Below are positions 917-45,663 of a DNA stretch of 64,000 bases, one piece after another (positions within the stretch are counted from its first letter, which is position 1; every line of letters starts with the position of its first letter). The stretch lies in assembly GCF_000190435.1 (NCBI RefSeq), contig NC_015152.1, forward strand, positions 1,308,458 through 1,372,457, written 5' to 3'. The position numbers and the translations under genes are program-made. The notes under the pieces were generated by a model. The model was not told the DNA's origin and searched no databases. It was given only the letters and a program-made list of their open reading frames with translations. The DNA is from Sphaerochaeta globosa str. Buddy (lineage in GTDB: Bacteria; Spirochaetota; Spirochaetia; Sphaerochaetales; Sphaerochaetaceae).

Positions 917-1584
917 CACGACCTTCCTTCCGAAACATTTTCATGTTGCTGTTTTACAATTTTCGTGTAGTCCACTTCTTTCTCGGAATACAAAAGTTCT
1001 TCCCGATCTAGGATTCCTGTCAAAAACAGCAATGAGTCGAAGGTCATGACAAACCCGGCAAGCGGAGCGGGAATATATTGGATGAATGTAGGCCAACCAG
1101 TCATCGGAAGGGTTCCAGGCAGACTCATCAAACGTTTTGTATACTGCCATCCATAGACAAGCAGGAACAAGCCACAAAGGAGAATGCAGACATCGGTGAA
1201 AATCACTAGGGCTTTCCGTACCCAGGAGCCTTCTTTGCAGGAGTTGTATAGGATATTTACAGAAATATGCATATGGTCGCGTACTCCGATGGCACACGCG
1301 AGGAAGGCGAACAGCGTGACGAGCAATCGGGGAACTTCCTCCGCCCAGCCGATGCCTGTATTGAACACATACCGCAGGACAACAGTAAGTATTACCAGTA
1401 CCACCATCAATGCCAGTGCGACTTGGGCAATATACAGAATTAGCTTATGGGTCCAGTGATTGAGGGTTCGTAGCAGTTCAGGAATCAAATGCAGCCCTTT
1501 ATGGTCCGCAACATCAACAATCAAATGGTTCGAGACCAGATAGGAACGAACCTTTGATGAGTAAGGTGATTTAGTTTCTCTCAT
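916..1584 (-). CDS. dctQ: TRAP transporter small permease DctQ
   Basis: About 222 residues with four predicted membrane helices, beginning near IAQVALALMVVLVILTVVLR, followed by the family motif WAEEVPRLLVTLFAFLACAIGVR. DctQ is the four-helix partner of DctM. I prefer the start at 1584 (MRETKS), preceded by GAGGGC about 8 bases upstream. A longer frame reaches 1656, but it would run through a strong hairpin (1617-1637) and lacks a good ribosome site. It lies between dctP and dctM and ends one base into dctM. Confidence 0.88.
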   Translation of the reverse strand: MRETKSPYSSKVRSYLVSNHLIVDVADHKGLHLIPELLRTLNHWTHKLILYIAQVALALMVVLVILTVVLRYVFNTGIGWAEEVPRLLVTLFAFLACAIGVRDHMHISVNILYNSCKEGSWVRKALVIFTDVCILLCGLFLLVYGWQYTKRLMSLPGTLPMTGWPTFIQYIPAPLAGFVMTFDSLLFLTGILDREELLYSEKEVDYTKIVKQQHENVSEGRS

Positions 1585-1659: not shown

Positions 1660-2682
1660 TTACTTGAACTGCTTGCCGATTTCCTTGATCTTATTGATGG
1701 TATCAGTGTACGCAGAGCCAAACTCTTGGTACAGCGGAGCCATTTTGCTCTGGAATTCAGCAAAAGCCTCGGGTGAGAGGGAAATGACCGTAGTACCGGC
1801 AGCGCGGACAATCTGCTCCGAGGAAGCCTCTTTCTTGGCCCATTCGGAAATCTCAAATTCCTGGGTCTCTTTAGCAACTTGCTTGATGATCGCCAAGTCT
1901 TCCTTGCTGACCTTTTTCAACGCTTCTACCGAGCCAAGCAGAATTTCTGGAACACGGGTATGCTGGTCAAGAATGTAGTACTTGGCCGCTTCGTAGTCGC
2001 CCATGTTCTGGTAGGTCGGCCAGTTGTTCTCTGCGCCATCGATGACGCCTTGGGTGATGGCAGAGTATACATCGTTCGGTCCAATGCCGGTCACACCGGT
2101 GGCACCGAGCAATTCAACCATGCGAACCATCATCTGATTGTTCTGCATGCGGATCTTCAATCCTTTCATGTCAGCCACTCGATTTACCGGCTTGGTCAGG
2201 TAGAATGAGCGGGAGCCTGCATCGTAGTAGCAAAGGCCGATCAAACCAGACTTGGAAGCCTCGATGTCACTGAGCATCTTTTGTCCGACTTCCCCATTGA
2301 GAACAGCCCACATATGAGCCCCGTTGTTGTACAGATACGGCATCTGTATGGCATTGAGTGCCGGTACATAGCTGGCAACCGGTGAAGCTGAAACACGGGC
2401 AAAGGCGAGATCACCAATCTGCAGGGCTTCGATGGAAGCCGTCTCCTGTCCGTAGAGCGTTCCGCCGGTATAGACTTCAATCTTGACCCTTCCTTGGGTC
2501 TTCTCTTCCACCAAGCGGGCGAATTCATGGTCGGCGAGGGATGTCGGATATCCTTCGGCGTGGACTTCTGATAGTTTAAGGACTACCGGCTTGACTGCAG
2601 CAGCTTCAGGGGCCGCTTGGGCGAACACAAGCACTGAAGCAACGAACAAAAGTACAAACAGAACACTAAGTCGCTTTCTCAT
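1660..2682 (-). CDS. dctP: TRAP transporter substrate-binding protein DctP
   Basis: 340 residues with a clear signal peptide (basic MRKR, hydrophobic core, AQA cleavage region near residue 23). Typical DctP features follow: LKLSEVHAEGYP at the start of the mature part, GLKIRMQNNQMM in the middle and GVIDGAENNWPTY after it, with the conserved Arg and Asn that contact carboxylate ligands. It acts in the periplasm and hands an organic acid or sugar acid to DctQM. GGAGG lies 8 bases before the ATG. It is the first gene of dctPQM and has its own promoter. Confidence 0.95.
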   Translation of the reverse strand: MRKRLSVLFVLLFVASVLVFAQAAPEAAAVKPVVLKLSEVHAEGYPTSLADHEFARLVEEKTQGRVKIEVYTGGTLYGQETASIEALQIGDLAFARVSASPVASYVPALNAIQMPYLYNNGAHMWAVLNGEVGQKMLSDIEASKSGLIGLCYYDAGSRSFYLTKPVNRVADMKGLKIRMQNNQMMVRMVELLGATGVTGIGPNDVYSAITQGVIDGAENNWPTYQNMGDYEAAKYYILDQHTRVPEILLGSVEALKKVSKEDLAIIKQVAKETQEFEISEWAKKEASSEQIVRAAGTTVISLSPEAFAEFQSKMAPLYQEFGSAYTDTINKIKEIGKQFK

Positions 2683-2724
2683 ACCAAATCCTCCATGTGT
2701 GATATTGAATATACATTCAAATAC

Positions 2725-2753
2725 ATAATAGATTTAGCCGAAGCGAACTGCAA
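2725..2753 (-). promoter_or_regulatory. sigma-70-type promoter of dctPQM
   Basis: On the minus strand TTGCAG, a 17-base spacer and TATTAT match the -35 and -10 boxes. An inverted repeat TTGAAT-N4-ATTCAA (2705-2720) lies just downstream and a TGCAACAA copy (2749-2756) overlaps the -35 box. Confidence 0.7.
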
Positions 2754-2811
2754 CAAAAATGCATCTACATAGAAGGACAAAAGCGACATAATTTTGAAAA
2801 AAACCGATATA

Positions 2812-2850
2812 TTGTTGCACTGGCGGAATTGCAGTGAAATATTGCAACAA
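2812..2850. promoter_or_regulatory. inverted repeat upstream of dctP, candidate operator
   Basis: Arms TTGTTGCA and TGCAACAA (8 bp, perfect) enclose a second nested pair, CACTG and CAGTG. It sits about 60 bases upstream of the dctP -35 box. A third TGCAACAA copy overlaps that box, so one regulator may bind all of them. No regulator gene is adjacent. Confidence 0.5.
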
Positions 2851-2874
2851 ATCTGTAGAATGGGAACTGCTGTA

Positions 2875-3459
2875 TTACTTACAGGAATCTGCAAGCATAT
2901 GCGATAGTTGCCTGACCGGCAGACCGATAACAGTCCCTTTGTCTCCTTCAATGTGGTCGACCAGGCTCTGTCCCTTTCCTTGGATCCGATAGGAACCGGC
3001 AGCCCCCATGTACTCCAAGGTATCAAGGTAATTTTCTATTGTTTGATCATCCAGATGCTTGAAATATACCATTGCCCGATCAGTTCCTGTAAGTATGGAT
3101 TGGTTATACCAAAGAGCCCATCCGGAATGTACTTCTTGTGCTTTTGCATTGAATGCGAGCAGCTGGCTTTTCGCTTCTGCTCGATTTTCAGGTTTTCCGA
3201 TGAGCTTGCCTTCAAAAAAAATGAGCGTATCGCAGCAGAGAACCGGCAGACTATAGGCTGGGTGCTCGTTTTGGTAGGCTTGCAGCTTGCGCAGGGCAAG
3301 CATGGCCACCACTTCTGCCGGATTGTTCAAGCTATGTGTCTCATCGCTGTTTGTGGGGTATGGTACCACCTCAATTCCCAGCTCTTCCAGCAAAGCCCTG
3401 CGTGCCACCGACTGGCTTGCAAGGATAACCTTGGGTAACAGGTACGCCAACTCAGGCAA
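2875..3459 (-). CDS. maf: Maf-family nucleotide pyrophosphatase
   Basis: 194 residues. Near the N-terminus VILASQSVARRALLEELG is the Maf phosphate-binding signature (S-x-S-x-R-R). Residues around VLCCDTLIFFEGKLIGKP supply the conserved Asp, and GSYRIQGKGQSLVDHIEGD the C-terminal motif. The family hydrolyses dTTP/UTP or modified nucleotides to monophosphates as house-cleaning enzymes. The ATG lies 8 bases inside the end of the upstream ABC-F gene, so the two are probably co-transcribed. Confidence 0.92.
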   Translation of the reverse strand: MPELAYLLPKVILASQSVARRALLEELGIEVVPYPTNSDETHSLNNPAEVVAMLALRKLQAYQNEHPAYSLPVLCCDTLIFFEGKLIGKPENRAEAKSQLLAFNAKAQEVHSGWALWYNQSILTGTDRAMVYFKHLDDQTIENYLDTLEYMGAAGSYRIQGKGQSLVDHIEGDKGTVIGLPVRQLSHMLADSCK

Positions 3460-28324: not shown

Positions 28325-28423
28325 TCAGACATCCCAAGAGGGATCCATGACTTCCGGAATGATTTGCCGTTCATAGATTGAGAGCCGTCCACTGAAAAGG
28401 TAGGCAATACTGCAAACAAAAAA
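28325..28423 (-). pseudogene. displaced C-terminal coding segment of the ClC gene
   Basis: Read in the frame one base off from the main gene, this stretch encodes the missing last helix and tail ([18 protein letters not shown] onward) and stops at 28325. It is coding sequence cut off by the T7-tract frameshift rather than an independent gene. Confidence 0.7.
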
Positions 28424-29639
28424 AGAGGGAAGTTGGATTGCCGAAGCCATAAAGCTCAAGTCCCAGTACAAAGCAGGCAAGGGGCAATTTGGTACTGCCG
28501 CTGAGCATGCCGATGGCCCCAAACATGGAGAGTGCCGAAACAGGAATGGGCAACCACGATCCGAAGATTGCACCGGTGGTTGCTCCTATGACAAGGATGG
28601 GAATCACCTCACCTCCGACAAAACCGCTTCCGATGGTCAGGGCAGTAAGCAGAAGCTTGAAGAGCGGAGCTAATTTGCTGGTAGTGCCGTATTCGGCTTG
28701 GATGATTAAATCAAGGGAGAGACCGTTGTAGGCAAATGAACCGGTAATGCCATAGATGGCTAGGGAAGCTGCCAATAGGAGCATGCTTGCAAGCAAAGCT
28801 TTTTTGTAAGGATTAGGCGTAATACGGGAAAACAGCTTTTTGGTCAGGTGGATCAGATGGCAGAAGAGTCTGCTTGCCAATCCGAGCATCATGGAGAGCA
28901 CCAGGAGGATCAATAGGGTGCGCAGGTCGATTGGAAAGGATTCGGCACGTACAGGAACCAAGGTGTGCATATGCAGTGCTTGGCTTGCCAGGCAGGCGGT
29001 GAATGAGGCAATCAGGCAGGGGAGCAGGGCATCAGTACGGTTGACGCGGGGGTTGGAGAACTGCATCCCGAACAGGGTACCTGCAATCGGGGCGTTGAAT
29101 AGGGCGCCGAAGGCAGCTCCTGCCCCACTGATCAGCCAGATTCCCTTCTGTTGGATGCTTTGGGGATGCCTGAATATGTTCTGTTCGAGACGGGAGACAT
29201 AGCTGCCGATGGATGCACCTAACTGCACTCCGACCCCTTCCTTGCCGCCCGATGCTCCGACAAGGTGGGTGATGAAGGTGTTGAAAAGCAGCAAGGGTGC
29301 CATTTTTGTGGATATTCTCTGTTTGTGAACATCGCGGTCGTTCTCATAGCCGATGCTGGTTGGATGGGCGATATCGAGAATCCCCTGGTTGATCAGGTCG
29401 ATCACTTGAGAGCCACCGTCCTTCAGATAAGGACCGAGTTTCTGATAGAGAAGGGCGGTGAGTAGGGCGCCGAGGGGAATGCACAAGAGAATCCAGGGAT
29501 AATCGGATCTGATTGCACCTGCCTTTGCTACAAGGAAGGTCAACAAGCTGATGATCGGTCCAACCAATAAGCCGAGCAGTAAAGCTCGTACAGTCCAAGC
29601 CAGTAGAGGAATTGAGATATTGCGTCTTGTATGGTCCAT
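28371..29639 (-). CDS. ClC-family anion transporter, C-terminus altered by a frameshift
   Basis: About 422 residues as read, with roughly ten membrane helices. [17 protein letters not shown] holds the gating Glu region, and [24 protein letters not shown] is a conserved later segment. The frame leaves the family at 28417-28423, a run of seven A (T on the coding strand), and stops at 28371 after CLQYCLPFQ. Removing one base continues as [19 protein letters not shown], which fits ClC C-termini. The start is uncertain; the ATG at 29639 has a TATGAT box 7 bases upstream and no Shine-Dalgarno. Confidence 0.8.
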
Positions 29640-29752
29640 ACTGCACATCATACGGGGTTTTCTTGTTTCTTGGAACCTCAAGAGAGCCTTATTTTGCCTT
29701 GACAACACACAAAGGTTGGCACACACTTGCTTCTGATAAAGAAGGAGAAGTC

Positions 29753-35435: not shown

Positions 35436-35464
35436 TTGACTGCAGAGGAGCAACTTTCTAAAAT
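35436..35464 (+). promoter_or_regulatory. promoter of the fluoride riboswitch-antiporter transcript
   Basis: TTGACT, a 17-base spacer and TAAAAT. The predicted start, about 7 bases downstream, falls on the first G of the riboswitch. Confidence 0.75.
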
Positions 35465-35470
35465 CTGAAT

Positions 35471-35532
35471 GGGCGATGGGGTTCGCCTTCATAATGAAAA
35501 CCGCAGAGTTCTGAAAGCTGCTGATAACTCCA
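35471..35532 (+). ncRNA. fluoride riboswitch (crcB motif)
   Basis: GGCGATGGGGTTCGCC begins the motif: a GGCGA/TCGCC hairpin whose loop GGGGTT can pair with AACTCC at 35526-35531, the defining pseudoknot. AAAC then precedes the second stem (GCAG 35503-35506, CTGC 35518-35521), followed by TGAT. Order and spacing match the known class. CTCC can alternatively pair with GGAG in the Shine-Dalgarno (35553-35556), extended by AGAAA/TTTCT, suggesting translational control. Confidence 0.88.
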
Positions 35533-35562
35533 GAAATAAACTACGTTTCTCGGGAGGTTTGT

Positions 35563-36828
35563 ATGGCTTTCAGTCTTGCTTCCGTGGTTTTGTTGTGTTT
35601 GTTTTTGGATTGGCTTTTAACCAAGGTGCACGTACCTGCACTCATCGGCATGCTTTTTGTGGGCATGCTCTTCGGTCCTGCAGTCCTGAACATATTGGAC
35701 AGCTCGCTGCTTGCTGTAGGCTCTGACTTGCGGATGATCGCCCTGATAGTTATCCTGCTTCGCTCGGGGTTGGAACTCTCCCGGGAGAGCCTGCATAAAG
35801 TAGGGCTGCAGGCCATCTTTCTCTCCTTTCTTCCCGCTTTATTTGAAACCCTAACCGTCATGCTCATCGGCCCCTATTTTTTGGGACTCTCACTTCTTGA
35901 GAGTGCCATCCTTGGCTGTGTTCTGGGCGCGGTATCACCTGCTGTGGTGGTACCTATGATGGTGACCTTCATCCAGGAGAAGCGAGGCACACAGAAAGGA
36001 ATCCCCACCCTTGTGCTCGCCGGAGCCAGTATGGACGATGTCACCGTCATTGTAGCTTTCAGCATCGTTCTTGGCCTGTATGTAGGCGATACCGTGAACT
36101 TGGCGTGGACCGTGGCAGGTATTCCCCTTTCAATAGCATTCGGAATAGTCATCGGTTTGGCAATCGGCCTTGTTTTGATACGGATATTTGAACAGTTCAA
36201 CCCGCGTGCGACCAAACGGGTATTGGCCATGCTGATGATCTGCATACTGTTAGTGCACCTCGGTGATGTTCTTGACTCCCGTCATATTCCCTTTGCTGCG
36301 TTGCTGTCGGTAATGGCCATCGGCTTCATAATTCTGGAGAAGCGGGAGCACATGGCCCATGAGCTGTCCTCCAAACTGGGAAAAATCTGGATTTTCGCCC
36401 AGATTTTGCTGTTTGCCATGGTAGGCTCGCAAGTCGATCTTGCTGCTGCGCAAGAGGTAGGCGTCAAGGGAATTCTTTTGATTCTCATTGCACTGGCCGG
36501 ACGAAGCGTCGGCACCTATTTTTGTACGTTGGGAAGTGGCTTTACTGCAAAGGAAAAGGCTTTCATCGTTATTTCCTATCTTCCAAAAGCTACGGTACAG
36601 GCAGCCATTGGGGCAACCCCTCTTGCTGTGATGGGCATGCACGGCATGCCTACCGGGGCAGGGCAGGTGATCTTGGCGGTAGCAGTTATGAGTATTGTAC
36701 TTACAGCACCCTTGGGGGCTATCGCCCTGAATTGGGCAGGCCATCACCTGCTGTCAATCGATACCAGAGAGACTTTCAGCAGCCTGCAGGCGATACAGGA
36801 GAGCCAACATGAGGGAGCTGCAACCTAA
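35563..36828 (+). CDS. cation:proton antiporter (CPA/NhaP-like) under fluoride riboswitch control
   Basis: 421 residues with about twelve membrane helices and short loops. The conserved Asp-Asp pair in GASMDDVTVIVAF is the ion-binding site expected for the monovalent cation:proton antiporter superfamily; an Arg-Ser-Gly segment (LLRSGLELS) is also typical. It sits in the inner membrane. GGGAGG is 5 bases before the ATG and is part of the riboswitch expression platform. Antiporters are among the gene classes reported with this riboswitch; whether this one moves fluoride or rebalances H+/Na+ is open. Confidence 0.85.
   Translation: MAFSLASVVLLCLFLDWLLTKVHVPALIGMLFVGMLFGPAVLNILDSSLLAVGSDLRMIALIVILLRSGLELSRESLHKVGLQAIFLSFLPALFETLTVMLIGPYFLGLSLLESAILGCVLGAVSPAVVVPMMVTFIQEKRGTQKGIPTLVLAGASMDDVTVIVAFSIVLGLYVGDTVNLAWTVAGIPLSIAFGIVIGLAIGLVLIRIFEQFNPRATKRVLAMLMICILLVHLGDVLDSRHIPFAALLSVMAIGFIILEKREHMAHELSSKLGKIWIFAQILLFAMVGSQVDLAAAQEVGVKGILLILIALAGRSVGTYFCTLGSGFTAKEKAFIVISYLPKATVQAAIGATPLAVMGMHGMPTGAGQVILAVAVMSIVLTAPLGAIALNWAGHHLLSIDTRETFSSLQAIQESQHEGAAT

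Positions 36829-45337: not shown

Positions 45338-45453
<116 letters not shown>

Positions 45454-45547: not shown

Positions 45548-45663
<116 letters not shown>

Follow-up and report, generated by a model that had tools for sequence, protein, structure and literature searches.

A fluoride riboswitch precedes a gene for a cation/proton antiporter of the NHA2 type in the window, by which we mean the whole 64,000-nucleotide stretch of Sphaerochaeta globosa str. Buddy that was analysed (contig NC_015152.1, positions 1,308,458 to 1,372,457). The evidence taken together makes it quite probable that this riboswitch switches the antiporter by hiding the Shine-Dalgarno sequence (SD), and that the antiporter has an ion or pH role beside a fluoride exporter of the CLC-F type. 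Under this model, the crcB-class riboswitch would form the very 5' end of the antiporter mRNA. Without fluoride, its CUCC segment, extended by an AGAAA/UUUCU pairing, would pair with the SD and keep translation low; once the Mg-fluoride complex is bound, AACUCC would pair with GGGGUU in the P1 loop, so that the ribosome site would be free and the antiporter made. The protein would then probably rebalance ions and pH after HF entry acidifies the cytoplasm, and the CLC-F protein, encoded ~6 kb away, would export fluoride.

The sequence-only reading had recognized the crcB motif in this leader, and the corresponding Rfam model bears it out. According to a cmscan run over the whole window, RF01734 (fluoride riboswitch) matches at 35463-35540 (+) with 36.5 bits (gathering score 34) and an E-value of 1.9e-6 over the window, and the match spans the full model (1-64) and is not truncated. 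Since just 2 RF01734 matches in the 3.32 Mb genome pass the cut-off, with the next best having 14.6 bits, a chance match is of no concern. The aptamer lies in the 5' UTR and ends 22 bases upstream of the antiporter ATG. A Chlorobi-1 RNA candidate at the same position was rejected (12.3 bits vs the gathering score of 50). Elsewhere in the window, the end of an rRNA operon contains two tandem 5S rRNA genes (45340-45452 and 45550-45662).

All elements of the motif order given by that reading are present, namely P1 (GGCGAUGGGGUUCGCC), AAAACC, P3 (GCAG...CUGC), UGAU, and AACUCC. The Rfam alignment places the P1 hairpin at 35472-35487 (+), with the stem GGCG/CGCC and the loop AUGGGGUU, and the P3 stem-loop at 35503-35521 (+); neither helix has any non-standard pair. 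Relatives carry other complementary stems in P3, and the GGUG/CACC pairing in P1 of one of them (L011) is a compensatory change. The pseudoknot GGGGUU/AACUCC is present by inspection, its 5' strand being part of the P1 loop and its 3' strand, AACUCC, lying at 35526-35531 (+), where CUCC is paired with the SD in the alternative predicted fold. The window RNA shares with the RF01734 class its sequence, P1, P3, and both pseudoknot strands, with a score above the model cut-off. The class consensus, however, treats as an insertion an extra small hairpin between P1 and P3 (UUCA-UAA-UGAA, 35488-35498, +). This hairpin has differing but complementary stems in relatives (UUCA/UGAA, UCUCU/AGAGA, ACCU/AGGU, and CUGCU/GGCAG), with a summed stem score higher than in all 1000 shuffles, and is absent from L011.

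The score of 36.5 bits is below those of the nearest relative L021 (44.1 bits) and of the second copy in the same genome (46.7 bits), as would be expected if the window riboswitch were decaying and had lost its ability to sense fluoride. We consider such decay extremely improbable: the core positions are aligned without non-standard pairs, the lower score accompanies 8 inserted bases, which form a hairpin of their own that relatives retain, the antiporter gene is intact, and the promoter is conserved. As for the stronger second copy, it is found at L007:7119-7202 (-), equal to G000:C1:2695118-2695201 (-); behind it come an SD and ATGGCCTTCAGTCTA, which is similar to the start of the antiporter (MAFSL, ~five codons) before it runs into stop codons. 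A search of 25 other genomes of the genus returned no orthologue of this second copy. Judging by these remnants, it looks like an orphan leader whose antiporter gene, a second one in this genome, has been lost.

The consensus scan reports a sigma-70-type promoter at 35436-35464 (+), in which TTGACT (from 35436) and TAAAAT (ending at 35464) are separated by 17 nt and agree with the consensus in 10 of 12 bases. Most orthologous leaders compared also have a TTGAC box before the aptamer, at a similar distance. Given that the promoter ends at 35464, transcription is predicted to begin near G35471, which lies one base 5' of P1, in agreement with the earlier proposal that transcription starts exactly at the first G.

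Regarding the expression platform, the SD (GGGAGG, 35552-35557, +) lies 5 bases upstream of the ATG, and only ~30 bases separate the pseudoknot strand from the start codon. The ligand-free minimum-energy fold pairs CUCCAGAAA with UUUCUCGGGAG in a predicted off-state hairpin over the ribosome site (35528-35556, +), which was also assessed by base-pair probabilities and shuffles and which buries the SD by means of CUCC/GGAG plus AGAAA/UUUCU. The sequestering arm proposed earlier is recovered in the fold with both of its pairings; as a switch, it reaches moderate statistics. Linker shuffles match the SD-pairing probability of the window leader in 16% of cases, and SD pairing is absent in 6 of the 18 family leaders tested and significant in some orthologues. 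When the pseudoknot strand is blocked in silico, the SD becomes more accessible in most, not all, family leaders, and the arm over the SD is kept in several relatives with different inner stems. It counts against the model that CUCC and GGAG are, by consensus, complementary in any leader of this class. As the per-locus shuffle test is mixed, it does not serve as proof of the SD arm, and the folding model makes the arm a plausible switch. The same predicted fold pairs a segment of the P3 loop, CUGAAAGCU (~35509-35517), with the first antiporter codons, GGCUUUCAG (~35562-35570); among the leaders compared by eye this pairing is kept only in the nearest relative L021, and it is thus given no weight.

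Because the fold pairs CUCC with GGAG of the SD and a search of the window leader for a terminator-like site found none, the model suggests that translational control of the window antiporter is likely. Published crcB RNAs, in contrast, frequently overlap terminators (PMC2864571), and many published fluoride riboswitches use them, whereas the predicted fold of the window RNA suggests hiding of the ribosome site. In Bacillota and some other homologues, the same pseudoknot strand instead forms hairpins that precede T runs, so the platform has been exchanged during evolution. Within one gene family, some leaders appear to hide the ribosome site and others to use terminators, with both devices built on the same strand of the aptamer. 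These T-run hairpins and the published overlaps also speak for a response to fluoride that is mainly transcriptional here as well, by an intrinsic terminator or Rho instead of ribosome-site hiding. For the window leader this seems unlikely, given that it has no terminator-like site and that its pseudoknot strand, so close to the start codon, is paired with the SD in the predicted fold.

The antiporter gene itself (35563-36828, +) encodes 421 aa and matches PF00999 at 5.1e-38. The closest solved relative of its product is NHA2 (SLC9B2), with E-values of 3.9e-44 for phmmer and 1.1e-68 for the profile search, and the five ion-site residues E215, D278, D279, R432, and K460 of NHA2 correspond to E95, D158, D159, R314, and K342 in the window protein. 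These residues hardly vary among 97 homologues, and a comparison of riboswitch-linked and unlinked homologues for marker residues of fluoride transport revealed no difference in the ion site. The protein thus has the residues expected of a cation/proton exchanger. It differs from NHA2 in being bacterial and in having a fluoride riboswitch upstream, and its exchange activity is predicted. Literature searches for Sphaerochaeta together with fluoride, and for NHA2 together with fluoride, returned no relevant-looking title or abstract.

The linkage of the riboswitch and the antiporter extends far beyond the window. A survey of 100 genomes of the family yields 26 RF01734 matches, 22 of which lie directly upstream of an antiporter orthologue (41-86% identity to the window protein), followed by 2 before CrcB (L027 and L032) and 1 before a dead remnant in the same genome as the window (L001). 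The last one (L029:1501-1574) precedes an ORF at 1700-3073 named by eye as MutS-like; a MutS association was mentioned for the crcB motif in 2010 (PMC2864571). The antiporter occurs in 28 family genomes, 22 with the riboswitch and 6 without a detected one, the latter counting against the model. Among the 80 nearest homologues outside the family survey, 42 have RF01734 upstream on the same strand, and for a few of the remaining 38 the available upstream DNA is too short for a verdict. The linked homologues belong to at least 8 phyla, including Spirochaetota, Planctomycetota, Bacteroidota, Thermodesulfobacteriota, Nitrospirota, Bacillota, Fusobacteriota, and a Bipolaricaulota bin, among others. 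On the homologue tree the riboswitch label requires 16 changes vs 30.5 in shuffles, i.e., the linkage is clustered on the tree, with repeated gains or losses. One locus (L081) contains two divergent fluoride riboswitches, at 954-1024 (-) and 1215-1286 (+), one of them preceding an antiporter homologue and the other an ORF that resembles, by eye, a dynamin-type GTPase.

According to a 2024 review (PMC11139923), Na+/H+ antiporters are outnumbered only by fluoride exporters among the riboswitch-linked classes and are tied to pH homeostasis. The window arrangement is therefore of a known kind: as far as Baker 2012 is represented in that review, its riboswitch-linked Na+/H+ antiporters have the same layout, with a fluoride riboswitch before a cation/proton antiporter, and some linkage counts given here may repeat published ones. 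The earlier suggestion that this antiporter takes part in fluoride defence gains support from the 22 adjacent pairs in the family and the 42 of 80 nearest homologues elsewhere, and it agrees with the ranking in the review.

As for other fluoride-defence genes, the window contains one for a CLC-F type fluoride/proton antiporter at 28371-29726 (-), which is the only CLC of the genome. The closest solved relative of its product is the CLC-F structure 6d0j (1e-31, vs 7e-10 for the best chloride CLC), and the gating Glu, within the motif GKEGV, is not followed by a proline. No riboswitch was called at this gene when the whole window was scanned with Rfam. CLC-F is likewise a fluoride-defence antiporter, though of a fold family unrelated to that of the NHA2-type protein, and is the probable functional partner of the latter, outside its transcript. 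A search for CrcB (PF02537) in the window genome gave no match, while the control matched in 10 of 14 genomes. With no CrcB and a single riboswitch-free CLC-F in the genome, the exporter and the riboswitch-controlled antiporter probably share the work.

Across the 22 family genomes with a riboswitch-antiporter pair, CrcB exceeds the cut-off in none; a candidate in G055 was discounted as a sub-cut-off match (23.4 bits) in a 497-aa frame. A CLC-F relative is present in 6 of the 22 (the window genome G000, G002, G037, G049, G083, and G085), and the other 16 have neither CrcB over the cut-off nor a CLC-F relative. Eleven of these 16 have chloride-type CLCs only (GKEGP or GREGP motif), one has no more than a sub-cut-off CLC match, and the remaining four show no CLC match, among them the 99%-complete G063, where CLCs are missing altogether. 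A gene might go unseen in genomes split into many contigs, but G055 and G086 each consist of a single contig. Hence, in 16 of the 22 pair genomes the antiporter is the only recognized fluoride-linked gene.

These 16 genomes, and G063 in particular, are what one would expect if the antiporter itself exported fluoride by F-/cation or F-/H+ exchange and thus represented a third kind of fluoride exporter. Two points speak against direct fluoride transport, however. The intact cation site has the residues of a cation/proton exchanger, the same in homologues with and without the riboswitch, and the window genome has a CLC-F gene. We therefore regard fluoride export by the antiporter as very unlikely. 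A broader proposal, that in lineages lacking both CrcB and CLC-F the chief protection against fluoride comes from the antiporter alone, whether it moves fluoride or acts through pH and ion balance, is also rather unlikely, though less so; if the antiporter has this part, its intact cation site favours a defence in which fluoride is not moved. For the window, the preferred reading is an antiporter with a probable role in ion and pH balance that works beside CLC-F.

Both the RNA class and its association with Na+/H+ antiporters were known before. To this the analysis adds a defined subfamily, with mammalian NHA2 as a relative, that is tied to fluoride across at least 8 phyla, as well as near-complete genomes in which the antiporter has no known fluoride exporter beside it. 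This raises the questions of whether the antiporter alone gives fluoride tolerance and whether it moves fluoride or only cations and protons. With such a subfamily and such genomes at hand, the help that the antiporter may provide via pH balance becomes directly testable.
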